From a virus, in IMG/VR virus record IMGVR_UViG_3300020020_000070, positions 1 through 45,340 of that record: a stretch of DNA of 45,340 bases. One strand, 5' to 3'. The notes beneath the pieces were generated by a model, which worked only from the letters and a program-made list of their open reading frames with translations, was not told where the DNA came from and did not search any database. The position numbers and the translations under genes were made by a program. Below, in pieces: positions 9,430 through 21,693 of the stretch (position 1 is its first letter; each line of letters starts with the position of its first letter).

Positions 9430-9442
9430 GGGGGGACCGGCC

Positions 9443-10132
9443 GTGCAAAACCACGAACGATCGGCCCTCGGCGCGGCTGCCGCCCTGGCGCTGGTGACGC
9501 TGGGCGCGGCTGCCCAGGCGATGCCGGCGCCCCGCGCGACCTTCCACGCCGTCTGCTACACAGCCCGGGAGGGCATGCAGGCGCAGGTCGAGCAGCGTCA
9601 GGCGCTGATCGCGCAGGCGCGCGCGGACGGCCTGGACGGCGCCGCGGACGCGCTGCACGCCAGCATGATCGCGGACCTGATGGTCGAGCGCTGGTCGGAG
9701 TCGGCGCCCAACCTTGTCACGACGGTCGGCAAGAATGACCTGCTGGACAAGTACCTGGGCGGCAGCGCGTACACGGCCGCATGGTTCTGCGGGCTGATTT
9801 CGTCCGTCAGCTACAGCGCCCTCGCCGCCGGCGACACGATGGCATCGCACGCCGGCTGGACCGAGGCGGGCGGCACCAACGCGCCGGCGTACACGGGCAA
9901 CCGTCCCGCCCTGGCCTTCGCCGCGGCGTCGGCAGGCAGCAAGGCGACGTCGAGCGCGTCGTCCTTCACCTTCACCAGCGCCGGGACGATCAAGGGCATG
10001 TTCGCCAACAGCGTCACGACGAAGGACGGCACGACCGGCATCCTCTACAACGCGGTCCTGTTCACCGGCGGCGATCGGACGGTCGCCATCAGCGACGTCG
10101 TGAACGTCTCCGTCACCTACACGATCACCTGA
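9443..10132 (+). CDS. Putative virion structural protein with signal-like N-terminus
   Basis: A 229-residue protein that starts at a GTG preceded by AAGGGGGG. The first 27 residues resemble a signal peptide (HERSALGAAAALALVTLGAAAQAM). A helical section follows (REGMQAQVEQRQALIAQARADG), then a beta-rich C-terminal domain from about residue 90 (VGKNDLLDKYLGGSAYTAAW...). That C-terminal domain resembles a family of phage proteins of unknown role often found near head or tail-fibre genes, which I recall without an established function. It could be a decoration or fibre-base protein. The second signal-like N-terminus in neighbouring genes is odd. Confidence 0.7.
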   Translation: MQNHERSALGAAAALALVTLGAAAQAMPAPRATFHAVCYTAREGMQAQVEQRQALIAQARADGLDGAADALHASMIADLMVERWSESAPNLVTTVGKNDLLDKYLGGSAYTAAWFCGLISSVSYSALAAGDTMASHAGWTEAGGTNAPAYTGNRPALAFAAASAGSKATSSASSFTFTSAGTIKGMFANSVTTKDGTTGILYNAVLFTGGDRTVAISDVVNVSVTYTIT

Positions 10133-10592: not shown

Positions 10593-13253
10593 ATGACGAC
10601 TGAAACCCTCAACGCTGGGACGACCAGCTGGACGCCGCCTGCGGGCGTGACGTCCGTCACCGTTACCTGCTGGGGCCCGGGCGGCGGCGGATCGACCCGG
10701 TCGACGACCGGCCTGGGCGGCGGCGGCGGCGGCGGCGGCCTGTCGGTCGGGGTCGTCGCGGTCGTCCCTGGCGTCGCCGAGACGGTCCAGATTCCCGCCG
10801 GCGGCGCGCCGGGCACCACTGCCGGGACCTGCTTCTTCCGCGATGCCACGACGGTCATGGCGCGCGCGGGCGTCAGCGTGGCCACGAACGTTGCGACTGG
10901 CGGCGCGGGCGCAGCTGTCGGGGTCGGAACAACGACGCGCAGCGGCGGCGCGGGCGCGTCGCTGGCGTCCGGCACGACCGGGTCCGGCGGCGGATCGTCG
11001 GCGGGCACATCGGCCAACGGCGTCGCGGCGACGACCAGCGCAGGCGCGACCGCCCCGACCGGCGGCGGCAATGGCGGCGCGGGCGGCGCGAACGCGAACG
11101 GCACCAACGGCGCGACCCCTGGCGGCGGCGGCGGCGGCGTGTACCGATCGAACGGCACGCGGACCGGCGGCACCGGCGGCGCTGCAAGGATCCAACTCGA
11201 CTACATCGCGGCGACGATCTACAACGTCGACGCGGCGGACACCGCAGCTGCAGGCGAGTCGGGCGACGCGCAGCACGGCGTCGCGGAGACGGTCAGCGAG
11301 TCGGCGGCGTCCGGCGATGCAGCGACCCAGGCGTCGCCAGCTGGCGGCGGCGCGACCCTGGCGTCCGACAACTTCAACCGATCCGACGGCGCCCTGGGCG
11401 CCCCCTGGTACGACCTGACGTCCAAGGTTGGCGTCGTCGTCGGCAACGAGGCGGCGGGCGCGAACGGCGGCGGCGGCTACACCATCCCGATTTGGGACGT
11501 CGGCGCGACCAGCTACACGGCCAAGATCAAGGTCAAGTACAACGGCTGGATCGGCGGACAGTCTGGACTGGTCTGGCGCGGCCTGACGGACAGCGACTAC
11601 TGGGCGTCCCATATCTGGTTCGGCGAACTCCGAATCAGCAAGTGGGTCAGCAACGCCGAGACGCTGATGTACCAGCACACCAGCGCGAGCCTCGCTACCG
11701 ACGGCTCGGTCCAGTACCAGCTGGAGGTCAGCGTCGACTATGCGACCGACGCGATCGTCTTCAAGCTGGACGGGGTCACGATCTACAGCGTCACAGATGC
11801 GACGCACCGGGCCGGCACCTACGTCGGCTTCCGCAACCTGTCCAGCGACGACAACGCCAGCCGCTACGATGACTTCCTGGTCACTGCCCCGGGCGGCGGC
11901 GCGACGACGTACGACGTCGACGCGGCGCAGTCGGCCGGCGCCAGCGACGCGGCCACGGGCCCGACGGTCCTGCTGGCCGCGGCGGCGCAGTCGGCGGCTG
12001 CCAGCGATCCGGCGACCGGCGTCGCGGTCCGGCCTGCAGCTGCAGCGCAGTCCGCGGCCGCGTCCGACGTCGGGACCGGGCTGGCGGTCAAGCCGGCGCC
12101 GGCGGCGGACAGCGTCGCGGCGACCGATGCCGCCCTGGGCCCTGCGACCCGGCCAGCAGCTGCGGCCGACAGCGCAGCGGCGACGGACAGCAGCGACAGC
12201 GCAGCAGCTGCAGGGGCGGCAGCGGCCGACAGCGCAGCAGCTGCCGACCAGTCGACCCAGCTGGCCGCCCTGCCAGCCGCAGCGGCCCAGGCGGCCGCCC
12301 TGGCTGACGTCGCGGCAGCGCAAGGATCCTTCGGCGCGGTCGCATCCCAGCCGGCGGCGGCGACCGACGCCGCAGCTGGCGCCCTGGCGATCCCGGCCAG
12401 CGGGTCCGACAGCGCAGCAGCGACCGACGCATCGACGCAGGGCGCGGCCGCGGCATCGGTCAGCGCGACCCAGGCGGCGACCGCCGGCGACGCGGCGACG
12501 CAGCTGGCGGTGCTTCCCGCCCTGGCTGCCGACAGCGTCGCGGCCAGCGATGTCGCGTCCGCGGTCTACGCCCTGGCCGCAGCTGCTGCCGACAGCGTCG
12601 CCGCATCGGACGCGGCCGCGCGCGCGGGGACGATGGGCCTGCAGGCGATCGACAGCGCGGCAGCGACGGACGCCGCCGTCTACCTCGCCGCCGGCGACGT
12701 CCTGGCGCAGCAGTCCGCGGGCGCCGGCGACGCTGCAGCGACCATCGGCGCCTTCGGGGCCATCGCGGCCGACCCGGCAGCCGCATCAGACGCCGCCCAG
12801 GCGGCCCGGACGCAGGCGGCAGGGGCGACGGACGCGGCAGCGGCGTCCGACGCGGCCACGGGGCAGGCAGGGGCCGGCCTGATCGCGTCCCAGGCGGCAG
12901 CAGCCGGCGACAGCGCGACCCGGACGTCGTCGCTGCAGCTGGCGGCCGCGCAGGCATGGGCCGCGGGCGACCTGTCGACGACGATCGCCGCCCTGGGCGC
13001 TGCGGCTGCCCAGGCGCTGACGATCGTCGACGCGGGCGCGATCCTGCAGCAGCTGGGGCTGGCGGTCGTCGAGGCGGTCGCGGCGGGCGACATCGCGGCG
13101 GCCGACCTGGACCAGCTGCTGGAGCCCTCGGTGCTTCGGACGCTGCAAATCGCCTTCCAGGTCCGGCGCTGGGCTATAAAGCCCGAGGCCCGCCGGCTGA
13201 CAATCGAGCCGCAGGCGCGCCGCCTGTCCATTCGCCGACCTGCAGCAGCATGA
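10593..13253 (+). CDS. Large repeat protein with glycine-rich head and lectin-like domain
   Basis: This 886-residue protein is probably part of a fibre or surface appendage. Residues 1-205 are a glycine-rich beta domain with poly-Gly runs, like the tips of some phage adhesins. Residues 212-251 hold two copies of a 20-residue repeat. Residues about 252-440 form a concanavalin/LamG-like domain (DNFNRSDGALGAPWYDL to YDDFLVTAP). Residues 442-842 hold 20 further copies of the repeat, with pattern AAAA[QD]SAAASDAATxxxxxx. The last 44 residues are basic (RRLTIEPQARRLSIRRP). The gene has an ATGA overlap with the fibre-tail adaptor. Carbohydrate binding is suggested, not shown. Confidence 0.8.
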   Translation: MTTETLNAGTTSWTPPAGVTSVTVTCWGPGGGGSTRSTTGLGGGGGGGGLSVGVVAVVPGVAETVQIPAGGAPGTTAGTCFFRDATTVMARAGVSVATNVATGGAGAAVGVGTTTRSGGAGASLASGTTGSGGGSSAGTSANGVAATTSAGATAPTGGGNGGAGGANANGTNGATPGGGGGGVYRSNGTRTGGTGGAARIQLDYIAATIYNVDAADTAAAGESGDAQHGVAETVSESAASGDAATQASPAGGGATLASDNFNRSDGALGAPWYDLTSKVGVVVGNEAAGANGGGGYTIPIWDVGATSYTAKIKVKYNGWIGGQSGLVWRGLTDSDYWASHIWFGELRISKWVSNAETLMYQHTSASLATDGSVQYQLEVSVDYATDAIVFKLDGVTIYSVTDATHRAGTYVGFRNLSSDDNASRYDDFLVTAPGGGATTYDVDAAQSAGASDAATGPTVLLAAAAQSAAASDPATGVAVRPAAAAQSAAASDVGTGLAVKPAPAADSVAATDAALGPATRPAAAADSAAATDSSDSAAAAGAAAADSAAAADQSTQLAALPAAAAQAAALADVAAAQGSFGAVASQPAAATDAAAGALAIPASGSDSAAATDASTQGAAAASVSATQAATAGDAATQLAVLPALAADSVAASDVASAVYALAAAAADSVAASDAAARAGTMGLQAIDSAAATDAAVYLAAGDVLAQQSAGAGDAAATIGAFGAIAADPAAASDAAQAARTQAAGATDAAAASDAATGQAGAGLIASQAAAAGDSATRTSSLQLAAAQAWAAGDLSTTIAALGAAAAQALTIVDAGAILQQLGLAVVEAVAAGDIAAADLDQLLEPSVLRTLQIAFQVRRWAIKPEARRLTIEPQARRLSIRRPAAA
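11226..11345 (+). repeat. First two copies of 20-residue (60-bp) repeat
   Basis: Two tandem 60-base units encode VDAADTAAAGESGDAQHGVA and ETVSESAASGDAATQASPAG. They share an acidic residue at position 5 and Asp/Glu at position 11 with the 20 units further downstream. The lectin-like domain separates them from the main array. Confidence 0.75.
11916..13118 (+). repeat. Array of 20 copies of a 20-residue (60-bp) repeat
   Basis: Twenty consecutive units are 20 residues long, with one 21-residue exception. Position 5 is Gln, Asp or Glu, position 6 is usually Ser or Ala, position 11 is almost always Asp, and the rest is Ala-rich. The DNA is diverged between copies while the protein period is kept, which points to selection on the period. 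Late copies become more hydrophobic (AAAAQALTIVDAGAILQQLG). Confidence 0.85.
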
Positions 13254-13549
13254 ACAGCTTCGACACCAGCACCCAGGACCGGCCGACGATCGACAAGTCG
13301 CCCGGGTCGACCCTCAACTACACCTTCGGCTGGTCCGACTGGCTGGAGGACGGGGACAGCGTCAGCGCGGATGCGGTCGTCGTCAGCGCCGGCCTGACGC
13401 TGGTCAGCAAGGCGCGGGCGCCGAACGGCGACGTCACGATCCTGGTCAGCGGCGGGACGCGCGGCGCGCTGGAGTGGGCGCGCTGCACGATCACGACGGC
13501 GGCGGCGCTGATCGAGGCGAAGACGATGTTCTTCCAGGTGGGCCTCTGA
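13250..13549 (+). CDS. Fibre-tail adaptor-like protein
   Basis: A 99-residue beta-rich protein (LNYTFGWSDWLEDGDSV near residue 22, ending in MFFQVGL). The YTFxWSDWL.DGD signature resembles the phage fibre-tail adaptor family that links fibres to the tail. It is coupled by ATGA to the repeat protein upstream, and its stop overlaps the next start. Its position between the adhesion-like repeat protein and fibre genes supports the adaptor role. Confidence 0.65.
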   Translation: MNSFDTSTQDRPTIDKSPGSTLNYTFGWSDWLEDGDSVSADAVVVSAGLTLVSKARAPNGDVTILVSGGTRGALEWARCTITTAAALIEAKTMFFQVGL

Positions 13550-14277
13550 TGGCCGGGCAGGTCGTCCGCGGGCGCGCGGTCCGGGTCGAAATCGCGACTT
13601 CCTTCGGCAGCCCGATCGCGGTCACAGGCGTCTCCCAGGCGGCCAATGCGGTCGTCACGGCGCCCGGCCATGGTCGGCCGGAGTTCGCCGCCGGCTACTT
13701 CATGGACTGCGCCGGCATGATCCAGCTGGAGGGGCAGGCCGTCCAGGTGATGGGCCCGACGACCAACAGCTTCCTGGCCCGCGGCCTGGACACGCGCGAC
13801 TACTCGGCCCTGATGTCCGCGCTGTTCGTCCCGGTCCTGACCTGGATCACGTTCCGCGAGGCGACCAGCTACACGATCAGCGTCGAGGACCCGCGGCCGA
13901 TCGACCGCACGACCGTCGTCGACATCCGGCCGCGCAGCGAGCGCGGGCTGGGCGGCGCGCAGACCCTGGGCTTCCGCCTCCTGGCGATGACCGTTCAGTC
14001 CGACGCGCTGCTGCAGGTCGAGCAGGCGTCGACGTCGCGGACCGGCGTCCTGATGCGGATCATTCACCGCGACGGGGCGGTCCGCATCGCGCGCGGCGTC
14101 CCCAGCTTCCCGGGCGAGGACGTCCAGCAGGGCGCGGTCGGCACCGGTGCGCTGACCGTCTTCGTGGACGGCGCGGTCCTCAAGCTGCCGGGCGATCCGG
14201 TCGTTCCGCTGGGCGCGCAGAATTACGTCGTGCCCGACTACATCGAGGGCGACTACGTCTCGGAGGACTATGCCTAA
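13549..14277 (+). CDS. Second tail-tube-like protein, paralogue in fibre module
   Basis: This 242-residue protein is clearly homologous, over nearly its whole length, to the tail tube protein at 21040. Shared blocks include VRGRAVRVEI/IKGRNVKVEV, DGAVRIARG/DGAVRLAYG and PGEDVQQGAVGTGAL/PGEDVGLGAVGTGSL. It carries an extra C-terminal tail (VPDYIEGDYVSEDYA). The start MAGQVV is chosen because it overlaps the previous stop (TGATG). It sits between the adaptor and the fibres, away from the tail-tube position, so it may form a fibre-attachment ring or collar rather than the tube. The function is inference. Confidence 0.8.
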   Translation: MAGQVVRGRAVRVEIATSFGSPIAVTGVSQAANAVVTAPGHGRPEFAAGYFMDCAGMIQLEGQAVQVMGPTTNSFLARGLDTRDYSALMSALFVPVLTWITFREATSYTISVEDPRPIDRTTVVDIRPRSERGLGGAQTLGFRLLAMTVQSDALLQVEQASTSRTGVLMRIIHRDGAVRIARGVPSFPGEDVQQGAVGTGALTVFVDGAVLKLPGDPVVPLGAQNYVVPDYIEGDYVSEDYA

Positions 14278-14413
14278 GAAGCCGCCCAAGCCGCCGCGTC
14301 CGCCCGAGCCGGCGCCGCCGCCACCGCCGGCACCGCCGCCGCCAGCGCCGCCGCCGCCCTACTGCAAGGATCCTTCCGGGTCCGACTTCTTCGCTGAGGA
14401 TTACGTGCAATGA
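14270..14413 (+). CDS. Proline-rich 47-residue protein
   Basis: A very small protein, overlapping the previous stop by eight bases and the next start by ATGA, so it is held in a tight translational chain. Residues 1-30 are almost pure Lys-Pro then Pro-Ala. The C-terminus (DPSGSDFFAEDYVQ) echoes the end of the preceding protein (EGDYVSEDYA). It could be a flexible linker or assembly peptide. I judge it real because of the start/stop overlaps on both sides; no function is known. Confidence 0.55.
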   Translation: MPKKPPKPPRPPEPAPPPPPAPPPPAPPPPYCKDPSGSDFFAEDYVQ

Positions 14414-15927
14414 CCATCGTCAAGCGCCTTGTCAAAGGCAGCCCTCTCACCAACGCCGAGTTGGACGGCAACTTCACCGACCTGGACGGCCGCGCGTCGA
14501 CCGCCCAGGCGGCGGCGACAGCTGCGGCATCGGCTGCAGCGGCGGCCAGCACGACGGCAGGGACGGCGGCGACCAACGCGGCGACGGCCCTGGCGGCTGC
14601 CAATGCGAAGCCAAGCCTGCAGTCCGGAGCGCTGGCCGCGTCGGCATCCCTGGCGCCCAATGCCACGGCGGTCCAGAACGCGATCAACAGCGCGGTGCAG
14701 GGCGTCGTCGTCGGCAGCACGGACCCGCTGCCGACGCCTTACTCGACGTCGATCCCGCTGGACCTGACGCGCGGGCGCGAGATGGGCGGAAACGTCCTGA
14801 CGGGCAACGTGACGCTGACCATCGCGTCATCGCCGGCGCCGATCATCAACGGCTTTTGCAACGTCACGCTGATCGGCAACGGCAGCGCAATCGCGACATG
14901 GCCGGGCGTCGAGCTATGGGACGAGACGTACGCCTGGAACGCGGCGGACGGCGCGCAGAACGAGCTCACCTTCTTTCGCCGCGCGAACACGACCTACCTG
15001 CTGGGCAAGCGCGGGCCGATCCTGGACACCAGCGCGCCGGCCTTCGTCGCCGCGGTCGTTCAAAACGCGATGCCGACCCATGTCGTGATGCAGTGGTCGC
15101 CGGACATCGACCTTGCAGCGATCAGCGCGCCGGGCCAGTTCACCGTCACCGGCGGGCATAGCGTCACCGCGCATGATCCGACGACGCCGCCCTATTCGTA
15201 CCTCACGATCGTTCCCGGCCTGACGGCTGGCGAGTCGGTCCAGGTTAGCTATGCGGTCCCGTCCACCAACAAGATGAAGGACCTATCGGGCAACTTTGCG
15301 CCGGGCTTTGTGAACCAGCCGGTCGCCAACTATGTCGCGGGCGCCCCCAGCACTACAAAGGTCCGCCTCAATGTGTCCGGCGGGTCCGGCCAGATGGGCG
15401 CGCTGGTCGGCGAGTCGGGCAATGGCACCGACGGATACAACTACTTCAACGAAGAACCGACCAGCTGCTTCCAGTTCGCCGACTACAGCGCGGTCAGCAC
15501 GACGAAGATGCCGGCCAATGCGGCGGCGTCGATCCGCTGGACGATGGCGAACGCCAACCAGGACGTCACGTGGTCGATGTCGTTCAGCCTGAACAGCGAC
15601 CCGACCTACCCGGGGCCGCTGGGATCGAATGGCTATGCCAGCTGCGATGTCACCTACGCGATCGGCAGCAGCGACGGGGTCAATCCGACCTATCGGGACC
15701 TGGGCGCCGGCGCGGACGTCGTCGTCGCGGCGGCCAATGGCGACGTCTGCGAGTTCGTCCGGCAGGCGAACGGGACGGTCACGTTCCGGGTCAGCAAGAA
15801 CGGCGGCAGCAGCTGGACGACGACCGATACGTTCACGACTGACCCGGCCGAGGCGCTGTACTTCCTGGCGCAGTTCGGCATGTGGTCGATCAACAATCTG
15901 ATCGGGACCGGCTTCGTCGCACCATGA
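14410..15927 (+). CDS. Tail fibre protein
   Basis: A 505-residue fibre. The N-terminus MTIVKRLVKGSPLTNAELDG followed by an Ala/Thr-rich helix (residues 30-70) is the standard opening of phage fibre proteins that bind the tail. The middle part (residues 105-290) is beta-rich and has an immunoglobulin-like segment (SAPAFVAAVVQNAMPTHVVM, GLTAGESVQVSYAV). The C-terminal 190 residues form a separate beta domain that may be the receptor-binding tip. It is coupled by ATGA to the next, larger fibre gene. Confidence 0.8.
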   Translation: MTIVKRLVKGSPLTNAELDGNFTDLDGRASTAQAAATAAASAAAAASTTAGTAATNAATALAAANAKPSLQSGALAASASLAPNATAVQNAINSAVQGVVVGSTDPLPTPYSTSIPLDLTRGREMGGNVLTGNVTLTIASSPAPIINGFCNVTLIGNGSAIATWPGVELWDETYAWNAADGAQNELTFFRRANTTYLLGKRGPILDTSAPAFVAAVVQNAMPTHVVMQWSPDIDLAAISAPGQFTVTGGHSVTAHDPTTPPYSYLTIVPGLTAGESVQVSYAVPSTNKMKDLSGNFAPGFVNQPVANYVAGAPSTTKVRLNVSGGSGQMGALVGESGNGTDGYNYFNEEPTSCFQFADYSAVSTTKMPANAAASIRWTMANANQDVTWSMSFSLNSDPTYPGPLGSNGYASCDVTYAIGSSDGVNPTYRDLGAGADVVVAAANGDVCEFVRQANGTVTFRVSKNGGSSWTTTDTFTTDPAEALYFLAQFGMWSINNLIGTGFVAP

Positions 15928-18851
15928 GCGGACTGCACAACATCCTGCTGCGCTCCAAGAAAGGGGGCGCCGCGCCGCCGCCGCCTGGAACGTACCTTTG
16001 GTCCGAGCTATTCGCCAGCGCGACGACCGGCGACAACATCACTATCCCGGTCGACACGACGGTACTTTTCGACCTGACGCAGTCGCCTATCTATCGGGAC
16101 GTCCTGGTGCTTGGGACGATGGACGTCGACGTCAGCAAGAACACCGAATTCCGCGCGGAGTCGCTGGTCTTCGACGGCGGCCGGCATCTGATCGGGCGCG
16201 ACACGGTCCCGCTGCAGGACCCGCTAAAGCATCGAATCACGCTGACCGGCGCCTACAGCCGGGAGACGGCCGAGAACAAGGCCGACATGAAGAACGCGCT
16301 GATGACCAGCATCCGCGGGATTCTGTACATGAACGGCTTTGAGCGCAGCTGGTTCGGTCATGTCCCGGCCGATGTGCACGTGAAGCTGGGCGCGACTGCG
16401 GAGGTCGGCGCCACGACGATCCAGCTGTCGAAGCCGGTCACCTGGAAGGCTGGCAAGACGATCCACTTGGCCACGACGCGCTACTGGGCCGAGGCCGCCG
16501 GCGCGGGCGCCGAGTTCCGCGTCATTGCGGCCGACGTCGTCAACTCGACGACCGTCACGCTGACCCAGCCGCTGACCTATCGGCACTTCGGGCAGCTGCA
16601 GTACATGGTCCCGCCGGCATTCGAGGGCGCGTCCGGCGTCAACCTGTCGCTGACGCCGCGGGTTGTTCAGCCCGGCGACGTCTTCGCGGGCAACGTCCCG
16701 GCGTCGATCGTCCTGAACAACGGCGCGCCGCAGGTCCGCGACACGCGCTGCACGGTCAGCTACGTCGACTTCCCGATCCGCATCAGCAGCCCGGCCGACA
16801 GCGACTACACGACCCACGGCTGGGCCGCAACGATCGGGATGATGGGCTACACAGGGACCTGCCGCGTCCGCGGCGTCACATGGGAGCGCGCGGGCAAGGC
16901 GGGCATGCTGGGCGCCTACCCGGACCACCATCACATGCGATCCGGCGGACGCTTCGGCCAGCCTGACGCCGCGGTCATCTATGGGCCGCTGAACCCGGCG
17001 ACGAACTACCACCGGGGGATCGCGGTCCTGCGGTCGACCAACCGCGGCTTCGTCTTCCATGGGACGCAGGGCGCGTCGCTGGAGGACGCCTTCTTCGACG
17101 ACATCGACACGCACGCGGTCTTCCAGGAGGACGGCGGCGAGGAAGAAATCATCATCCGCCGATGCCATGTGGCGCGCGTCAACCCGATCGGCTACGGCAA
17201 GACGCCGATCAAGGAGTTCGATGCGCGGCAGTACCTGTACCAAGGCCCGGTCGGACCGTCGGGCTTCTGGCTGGTCAATCTGCGGATCACATTCGAGGAC
17301 AACGAGGCCAGCGGCGGCGACATTGGGATTTGGCAGCTGCCGTCGACCAAGTGCTTCGGCCAGTCGCGCATGTGGCCGATCGTGCCGAACCGCCGGCCGG
17401 TCATCAGCTGGGCGCGGAACGAGGCGCACAGCCAGCGCCGAACCTGCATGATCACCGGCAGCGAAATCGTCAACGAGGCCGGCGCCCTGGTCAACCCGGG
17501 CTATGGCAACACATGGCGGATGCCGCCGCAGATCGACCTGCAGACGCTGACCGATGCCGAGTTCGCCCTGGGCCTGATGCTGGGGGCGAATCTCTGGAAG
17601 GGGCACCATCAGTGCTACGTCAACAACGCGATGCCGGTCAATTACGACAGCTGGCAGGTCGGGCCCGCGCGCGCGCCCTTCACGCATGACGGGGTCGGCG
17701 GCGAGGACGGCGACGAGAACCAGATGATCCGCGGCGTGGCTGCCGGCCAGTTCATCCGCTGTCTGTTCACGCCCAAGTCCCTCGACGACGCCTACCCGCT
17801 GCACAAGCCATACATCGCGGTCAGCTACCACGGCGGCGTCTGGTGGAAGAAGTGCAATGTCCTTGCGACGCCGATCAACGGGCTGGTCTATTTCGCGCAC
17901 GGCATCCTGGTCCAGCGCGGCGGGATGATGCGCCTGTCGGACTTCTACGAGGACCCGATCTACACGGGCTTCAAGGAGTGGGACGGCACGGCGATCATCG
18001 GCCAGAACGGCGGGTATCCCGGCTATTTCTCGCCGCCGCTGCAGATGATCGGGCGCTGGCCCAGCGCGGCCCAGTACATGGGGACGCTGCCCGTGTACTG
18101 GAACCAGTCGCAGGTCGGGGCCAAGCGCATCCCGGCCGGCGGCACGTTCTTCAACACGGACGGCGGCTGGTGGGTCCACAACGACCCGTTCTTCCTGTTC
18201 GGCCTGACCGGCTACGTCAACGCGGCGACGCCGCCCGGGACCGATCCGGGGACCAATGGCGTCCTGATGTCAGTCGCCCACGAATGGTATGGGCTGGAGG
18301 CGCCCTACGTCGACTTCGTCGATGTGAAGTACGCCGGCGCCGAGGTCCACTTCGACCGGGTCAACCCGGCGACGGACGCGGTCGTCAGCAGCTGGGACTT
18401 CCCGTACAGCGACCCGAACCAGACGACGTTCCACAACATGCGTCGCTGCAGCATCATCAAGGGCGGCCACTACCGCGTCCGCTGGAACCAGTCGGGGCCG
18501 GCGGCTGTCCCGCTGCCGCTGCGACAGGTCCAGCTGCTGATGTTCGGCGACGCGGATCAGATCACGACGACGGGCGGACATCACTTCTACGTCGAGGTCC
18601 AGTTCAGCGGGGCCAAGACGGTCAGCCGCGTCCTGTTCCCGTACACCGGCGGCGGCGGGACGATTGCGACGCAGCTGGGGTCGAAGCAGGCCGTCCGCGA
18701 CCAGCAGGGCTTCGCATGGTGGCAGGACAAGCCCAACAATCGCGTCGTCGTCTGCGTGGCCTGGGGCCAGTTCGGCCGCGACCTGTCGCACGGCCCGTAC
18801 CATGTCCTTGCTCTCTACAGCCGGCTCCACATGAACATCGAGGCACCCTGA
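15924..18851 (+). CDS. G8-domain beta-helix tail fibre / tailspike-like protein
   Basis: A 975-residue protein. Residues about 38-110 match a G8 domain: a beta-strand pattern ending in LVFDGGRHLIGRDTVPLQDP, where the GGxxxIG turn is typical. A long parallel beta-helix-like region follows. It includes LEDAFFDDIDTHAVFQEDGG and IIIRRCHVARV, in a pattern like that of pectate-lyase-type and CEMIP-type proteins. In animal hyaluronan-binding proteins, G8 domains sit in front of such helices. Here the protein probably binds or cleaves surface polysaccharide; no catalytic residues can be assigned. A Pro-rich linker (residues 16-22) probably separates it from a tail-binding N-terminus. It overlaps the previous gene by ATGA. 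Confidence 0.8.
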   Translation: MSGLHNILLRSKKGGAAPPPPGTYLWSELFASATTGDNITIPVDTTVLFDLTQSPIYRDVLVLGTMDVDVSKNTEFRAESLVFDGGRHLIGRDTVPLQDPLKHRITLTGAYSRETAENKADMKNALMTSIRGILYMNGFERSWFGHVPADVHVKLGATAEVGATTIQLSKPVTWKAGKTIHLATTRYWAEAAGAGAEFRVIAADVVNSTTVTLTQPLTYRHFGQLQYMVPPAFEGASGVNLSLTPRVVQPGDVFAGNVPASIVLNNGAPQVRDTRCTVSYVDFPIRISSPADSDYTTHGWAATIGMMGYTGTCRVRGVTWERAGKAGMLGAYPDHHHMRSGGRFGQPDAAVIYGPLNPATNYHRGIAVLRSTNRGFVFHGTQGASLEDAFFDDIDTHAVFQEDGGEEEIIIRRCHVARVNPIGYGKTPIKEFDARQYLYQGPVGPSGFWLVNLRITFEDNEASGGDIGIWQLPSTKCFGQSRMWPIVPNRRPVISWARNEAHSQRRTCMITGSEIVNEAGALVNPGYGNTWRMPPQIDLQTLTDAEFALGLMLGANLWKGHHQCYVNNAMPVNYDSWQVGPARAPFTHDGVGGEDGDENQMIRGVAAGQFIRCLFTPKSLDDAYPLHKPYIAVSYHGGVWWKKCNVLATPINGLVYFAHGILVQRGGMMRLSDFYEDPIYTGFKEWDGTAIIGQNGGYPGYFSPPLQMIGRWPSAAQYMGTLPVYWNQSQVGAKRIPAGGTFFNTDGGWWVHNDPFFLFGLTGYVNAATPPGTDPGTNGVLMSVAHEWYGLEAPYVDFVDVKYAGAEVHFDRVNPATDAVVSSWDFPYSDPNQTTFHNMRRCSIIKGGHYRVRWNQSGPAAVPLPLRQVQLLMFGDADQITTTGGHHFYVEVQFSGAKTVSRVLFPYTGGGGTIATQLGSKQAVRDQQGFAWWQDKPNNRVVVCVAWGQFGRDLSHGPYHVLALYSRLHMNIEAP

Positions 18852-21039: not shown

Positions 21040-21693
21040 ATGCCGCTCGCAAACGTCATAAAGGGCCGGAACGTCAAGGTCGAGGTCGGCGCGACCTACC
21101 TGGGCGCCCCGATCAGCGTCACCGCCGTCTCCCAGGCCAATCCAGGGGTCGCCACCGCGACCGCGCACGGGCTGGCGGACGGGGTCGTCGGCTTCTTCCA
21201 GAACGTCCTGGGGATGGTCCAGCTGGACCAGCAGGCAGTCCGCATCGACGCGCCGGCGGCCAACACGTTCTCGCTGCAGGGCCTGAACACGATCGCCTTC
21301 CCGGCGTACAGCGGCGGCCAGCTGGTGACCGTCCTGACATGGCTCACCCTGGCCGAATCGACGGCCTACCGGATCGCCGGCGGCGCGCCCGAGAAGCTGG
21401 ATGTGACGACCCTGATCGACGTCGTGCGGCAGGAGGAAAACGGGCTGCTTGCGGCGTCCGGCCTGGAGTTCGACACGATCGCCACGACGATCCCGACCGC
21501 TGCGCTGCAGCTGATCGAGTCGGCGGCGCAGGCGGGCACGAAGCTGATCTTCCGCATCACGCTGTCGGACGGCGCGGTCCGGCTGGCCTATGGCGAGCCG
21601 GCGCTGCCGGGCGAGGACGTCGGCCTGGGCGCGGTCGGCACGGGTAGCCTGGGCGTCTCGGTCAAGGGCTACATCCTCAAGCTGGCGCCCTGA
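21040..21693 (+). CDS. Major tail tube protein
   Basis: A 217-residue tail tube subunit that polymerises into the hollow tail. It follows ACGGAGG at a good distance from the ATG. The N-terminal VKVEVGATYLGAPISVTAV strand pair and the C-terminal LPGEDVGLGAVGTGSLGVSV block are shared with its paralogue at 13549. The position directly before the frameshifted chaperone pair is the canonical tube position, so this copy is taken as the true tube. Confidence 0.88.
   Translation: MPLANVIKGRNVKVEVGATYLGAPISVTAVSQANPGVATATAHGLADGVVGFFQNVLGMVQLDQQAVRIDAPAANTFSLQGLNTIAFPAYSGGQLVTVLTWLTLAESTAYRIAGGAPEKLDVTTLIDVVRQEENGLLAASGLEFDTIATTIPTAALQLIESAAQAGTKLIFRITLSDGAVRLAYGEPALPGEDVGLGAVGTGSLGVSVKGYILKLAP

Follow-up and report, generated by a model that had tools for sequence, protein, structure and literature searches.

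In phage T4, the Hoc protein displays binding domains on the virion surface, as is proposed below for the protein under study, although Hoc uses Ig domains and not a 20-residue repeat. Another point of comparison is Pseudomonas phage KPP25, whose PDB entries 26la and 44nx contain a chain named 'Structural protein' that is matched by the profile of the PHROG family phrog_8123 (E 4.6e-12) and is identical in sequence to ORF007 of KPP25 and near relatives. KPP25 ORF005 is also present in 26la and 44nx, alongside the phrog_8123 chain, the major capsid protein is found in 26de/44ny, and Hc3 in 26fb; going by the KPP25 proteins that occur together in an entry, 26la and 44nx would show the tail region. 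A literature search on the KPP25 structures found no relevant paper. Moreover, the profile of the family phrog_12240 spans repeat arrays of the type considered here together with the C-terminal domain of ORF005, and repeat stretches followed by an ORF005-type C-terminal domain occur in phages MetMV, Y7, Y11, 8P, and F116, of which MetMV, Y7, and F116 are podophages.

The stretch of DNA analysed here (the window) is the IMG/VR virus record IMGVR_UViG_3300020020_000070, with a length of 45,340 nt. It encodes an 886-residue protein that is probably a long adhesive fibre with a rod in which a 20-residue unit occurs 20 times. The explanation that we favour, and hold with some confidence, is that of a virion fibre, most likely tail-associated, in which a stalk of 20-residue units displays a head and an inserted domain, and for which the phrog_8123 protein is the tail partner.

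Architecture of the Probable Repeat Fibre

The fibre gene, its parts, and its closest neighbours are the following:

9440..10132, + strand: phrog_8123-type gene (phrog_8123, E 5e-14; conserved domain 9695-10129, start codon uncertain)
10593..13253, + strand: repeat-fibre gene, 886 aa (ORF list; intact homologue in locus L002)
10614..11183, + strand: glycine-rich N-terminal head, aa 8-197 (PF21722 Gly_rich_2; phrog_863 tail, E 9e-7)
11232..11351, + strand: two 20-residue units preceding the insert, aa 214-253 (D3/E9 and E3/D9, in register)
11358..11888, + strand: putative lectin (LamG/concanavalin A)-like insert, aa about 256-432 (motif pattern only)
11922..13124, + strand: array of 20 units with 20 residues per unit and one spacing of 21, aa 444-844 (left-out profile; lag-20 identity)
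13125..13250, + strand: C-terminal tail with short Arg-aromatic repeats (RRWAIKPEARRLTIEPQARRLSI) (sequence)
13250..13549, + strand: small 99-aa gene whose start overlaps the fibre stop codon (ATGA) (sequence)

An earlier sequence-only reading of this DNA had described two plus 20 copies of a 20-residue unit around an insert, with a single 21-residue copy, and this layout is borne out by the register of the units in the 886-aa ORF. The homologous protein of L002 (966 aa) exhibits the same order of head, two units, insert, array, and tail, with an array of about 24 units and a best segment with 49% identity to the window protein; over residues 1-100, the two genes differ by 13/11/45 substitutions at codon positions 1/2/3. 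The glycine-rich head noted in that reading matches PF21722 with 29.3 bits, above the gathering cut-off of 24.3. As for the domain that it had called LamG-like, the pattern of motifs makes this name plausible, while the insert has neither a LamG-type match in Pfam (E 0.1) nor a sequence match in the PDB; the head of one relative, L250, contains Laminin_G_3. Short tails resembling that of the window protein are found in L002, L045, L061, and L023. Among the PHROG profiles, phrog_12240 did not match the fibre protein at E 0.1, and no relative emerged from genome contigs when these were searched with the complete protein.

The 20-Residue Unit and Its Distribution

The self-identity of the window array reaches 0.44 at lag 20, with echoes of 0.38 at lag 40 and 0.39 at lag 60, versus a maximum of 0.30 over lags 10 to 40 in 2000 shuffles, and the mean pairwise identity between units is 0.40 versus 0.22 in shuffled sequence. 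Successive units are spaced by 20 residues throughout the 20-unit array with the single exception of 21, and their DNA has diverged, since its mean identity between units is 0.51; the initial claim of an exact period in diverged DNA thus stands. The same applies to the fixed acidic or Gln position (Q in 10 units, D in 9, and E in one) and to the second fixed position, where all 20 units have Asp.

An iterated 20-position profile was built on array ORFs from loci fetched via the upstream gene, and its consensus is [IVLA]-small-E-small-x-small-A-small-D followed by 11 looser residues. When this profile was rebuilt without the window and L002, it scored the window array at 209, versus a shuffled maximum of 35, and placed 20 units in register. 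The unit had been regarded as new-looking; instead, it belongs to a repeat family widespread in phages, of which, as judged from its sequence, it is a high-GC version. The Ala-rich frame that had been taken as its defining feature has to be abandoned as well. Across 40 array ORFs (some from near-identical loci), the Ala fraction of the arrays tracks the GC content of the contig (r=0.83) and the content of V, I, F, L, and Y drops as contig GC rises. The Ala-rich look at the small positions is therefore compositional, and the defining signature, read from the aligned units, pairs E/D/Q at position 3 with D at position 9 among small alternating residues. The earlier description of a fibre-like phage protein with a regular rod of repeats is supported. 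No model of this E3/D9 unit is present in Pfam or NCBIfam, and a literature search on the repeat found no relevant paper.

The distribution of the unit was followed in two ways. Firstly, 80 loci were fetched with the upstream gene and their flanks were inspected for arrays, which revealed that arrays with this period occur in a wide variety of proteins; together with the window and L002 (82 loci), 40 ORFs contain arrays of 5-32 units. Secondly, the DNA of viral contigs was scanned for a pattern of five E..D pairs set 20 codons apart, which involves no selection by neighbour gene. At least 112 viral loci carry true arrays among the 120 matches listed, and in these arrays 95% of the 1372 intervals between units equal exactly 20 residues, with a median of 11 units per array and a maximum of 53. 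E3 is kept at 0.96 and D9 at 0.90 in the scan arrays, values to be read with the fact that the pattern itself demanded five such pairs. Homologues with different repeat numbers, which the earlier reading had proposed to search for, thus exist with about 5-53 units. Two viral matches, L179 and L185, were dropped from the array set.

Applied to genome contigs, the same pattern found at least eight true arrays among the 120 matches listed; 9 of the 17 contigs scoring as arrays were dropped, mostly Ser-rich low-complexity proteins lacking the E/D signature. Three of the genome-contig arrays (L250, L263, and L281) also have phrog_8123 and are apparently proviral. The fibre, low-GC arrays, and phrog_8123 gave no match to named phages by tblastn, a result to which low-complexity masking may contribute; a capsid control matched 1028 records, and diverged queries from KPP25 and Y7 did match named phages. 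The small 99-aa gene (query 13250-13546) had no match among named phages either.

Many short array proteins (L087-L206) begin with MFGxxxFAQxPFASL or GGWGSGTWGQAGWG and end in Trp repeats of about 10 residues (DDTQTANWQNI); these start and end sequences are possible anchor or assembly motifs. Two of the eight genome-contig arrays come from archaeal contigs (L237, 1-4313, and L240, 3-8000), which encode giant proteins with LTESLPLSDTVTTSKQ-type repeats at a spacing of 20 or a mixed 18/20, where the E/D pattern is as in the phage unit and the likeness is one of pattern; the protein of L240 also contains FG-GAP and fn3 domains.

Predicted Fold of the Array

The earlier suggestion of a regular solenoid or rod fares differently in the window protein and in its relatives. 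The AlphaFold2 monomer of the window array and tail, with 24 relatives aligned, gave a pLDDT of 36 and no strands, whereas that of the low-GC array L036 (gapless alignment, 25 segments) reached a pLDDT of 66.6 and a pTM of 0.57 and showed each unit as two strands of 8 residues. Over the first half of the unit, low-GC arrays have hydrophobic or acidic residues at odd positions and mostly S, T, or A at even ones, an alternation that is the pattern expected of beta-strands. A helical rod was ruled out, since low-GC arrays alternate every second residue. In VIA-align, the L036 model aligned with beta-solenoids at Z up to 14.8 and an rmsd of 2.3 A over 159-160 residues, and Foldseek gave a match among viral models at E 3e-5 and nothing below E 0.001 against the PDB. 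Because repetitive solenoids match each other easily and the models are monomers only, the solenoid fold is taken as a lead, and the low-GC array is predicted with moderate confidence to be a beta-solenoid.

The low pLDDT of the window array and the dominance of small residues in its composition would also suit an unfolded, flexible Ala/Ser-rich linker, whose period would be a relic of tandem duplication. However, the near-invariant spacing and the retention of E3 and D9 across the scan arrays, as well as the regular two-strand unit modelled in the low-GC relative, argue against it, and exact spacing of 20 in spite of diverged units points to a fold constrained in length; thus, we consider such a linker improbable.

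A specific surface chemistry of the repeat, either a Thr/Ser face that binds cations, ice, or crystals or a curli-like self-assembly, in place of a passive stalk, is suggested by two structural alignments of the L036 model, one to a Ca-dependent antifreeze solenoid at Z 14.4 and the other to CsgA at Z 13.3, though with an rmsd of 8.6, together with the rows of Thr/Ser at even positions of low-GC arrays. Nevertheless, high-GC phages, the window included, have Ala in place of the Thr face, which therefore is not a conserved function, and neither the window protein nor any of nine relatives matched the Curlin profile of Pfam (PF07012). Such a role for the repeat is very unlikely.

The favoured fibre would thus be organized as follows. 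Each unit, as predicted in relatives, would form two beta-strands of about 8 residues with short turns between them, and stacked units would build a beta-solenoid whose length is set by their number, with the conserved acidic positions 3 and 9 forming ladders along it. This stalk, presumably anchored at one end, would display the Gly-rich head and the lectin-like insert, probably for the binding of surface glycans, and the upstream phrog_8123 protein would be its conserved tail partner.

Genomic Neighbourhood and Probable Location in the Virion

The window exhibits an HK97-type gene order, in which terminase, portal, protease, and capsid genes are followed by the fibre region, the head-tail adaptor, closure, neck, terminator, tail tube, tape measure, distal tail, and J-like protein genes. 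The fibre gene is thereby located between the capsid and head-tail adaptor genes, away from those of the tail tip, which speaks against a tail-associated fibre. Among the at least 112 scan arrays listed, phrog_8123 lies upstream on the same strand in 81 of 112, within 250 bp in 48 of them, and most scan loci without it have little upstream sequence; in L004 and L010, it is found downstream of the array gene.

Several further genes surround the fibre. A second tail-tube-like protein with an odd YVVPDYIEGDYVSEDYA end (13546-14274; phrog_584, E 3e-11) is encoded within the fibre cassette, in addition to the tail tube gene at 21040-21693 (phrog_584, E 4e-20). A 505-aa protein (14410-15927) has KGSPLTNAELDGNF near its start, an Ala-rich coil, and a weak tail collar match (E 0.011), and a 989-aa protein (15882-18851) contains G8 and CEMIP beta-helix domains (PF10162, PF24606); in L002, counterparts of both are present, downstream of the fibre and near it, respectively. 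ORFs with collagen-like GxY repeats occur near the array gene in L064 (6481-7791) and L003 (12698-13336).

In the window and in L012, the gene comes later than that of the major capsid protein and ahead of the head-tail adaptor gene, which is what a Hoc-like head fibre would show, with the repeats as a spacer that presents lectin-like domains outward from the capsid. Array genes also lie between phrog_8123 and the adaptor gene in L011, L061, L064, and L070, and an Ig domain of L023 matches the Hoc-like family phrog_4069 (E 3e-5). Nevertheless, the cassette is not tied to the capsid gene in L004, L010, and L069, the KPP25 entries with the phrog_8123 protein contain no major capsid protein, and in KPP25 and F116 phrog_8123 is preceded by the Hc3 gene, in other podophages by an equivalent structural gene. 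Moreover, the five-unit array protein of L006, where the units are weaker, has a match to a baseplate wedge family (E 7e-68). The KPP25 entries, phrog_12240, and L006 therefore favour a tail appendage; a Hoc-like capsid location for the window fibre is not supported, and we regard it as unlikely. Since the window protein has no KPP25-type C-terminal domain, its own link to the tail runs through the neighbouring gene only. In L005 and L006, the T4-like baseplate-wedge-type protein (phrog_17744) has further unit-like stretches near its N-terminus.

A protein that is not part of the virion, namely a surface adhesin or moron produced in the infected cell, would be in keeping with the giant Nitrososphaeria proteins that hold E/D repeats, one of them with FG-GAP and fn3. 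However, the gene is embedded in the block of virion genes, and array-plus-domain proteins have a domain in common with a solved phage structural protein, so that this origin of the repeat protein is highly improbable.

A broader and more tentative proposal, possible at best, is that the E3/D9 unit is an undescribed beta-solenoid stalk module of adjustable length, employed in tail proteins of sipho-, podo-, and myo-type phages, associated with a conserved phrog_8123 cassette, and related in pattern to the repeats of giant surface proteins of Nitrososphaeria.

Comparison with Known Systems

Repeat stalks set the reach of a phage and what is displayed. The E3/D9 repeat is very common in environmental phages, and its cassette moves between phages with different heads. 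The first reading of the window is corrected in that the repeat is part of an extensive family in phages, in which the partner gene is conserved and some relatives are named and in culture.

The predicted solenoid geometry of the relative L036 resembles that of beta-solenoid adhesins and spikes such as EtpA and tailspike-type beta-helices, although the sequences are unrelated and the likeness stems from a moderate-confidence prediction in a relative. Among PHROG families, phrog_12240 covers the same repeat type in L019, L037, L091, and L146; however, it is a family of unknown function, and the window protein has another head and tail. KPP25 (PDB 26la, 44nx, and 26gp) shares with the window the phrog_8123 homologue ORF007, and the C-terminal domain of its ORF005 comes after this repeat type in other phages, whereas KPP25 itself is a podophage in which the repeat stretch of ORF005 is at most vestigial, with no significant period. 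The F116-type podophages (F116, Pseudomonas phage 8P, and about 37 Pseudomonas phage records) differ from the window in that their units are degenerate, with D as the usual residue at position 3 and a mixed 18/20 spacing, and in having neither a LamG domain nor a Gly-rich head, but they carry D..D units of period 18/20 with phrog_8123 nearby. Together, the solved entries of KPP25 and the cultured F116-type Pseudomonas phages make the fold, the location, and the length-tuning of the stalk testable, and the same links would allow many 'hypothetical' proteins of environmental phages to be annotated.
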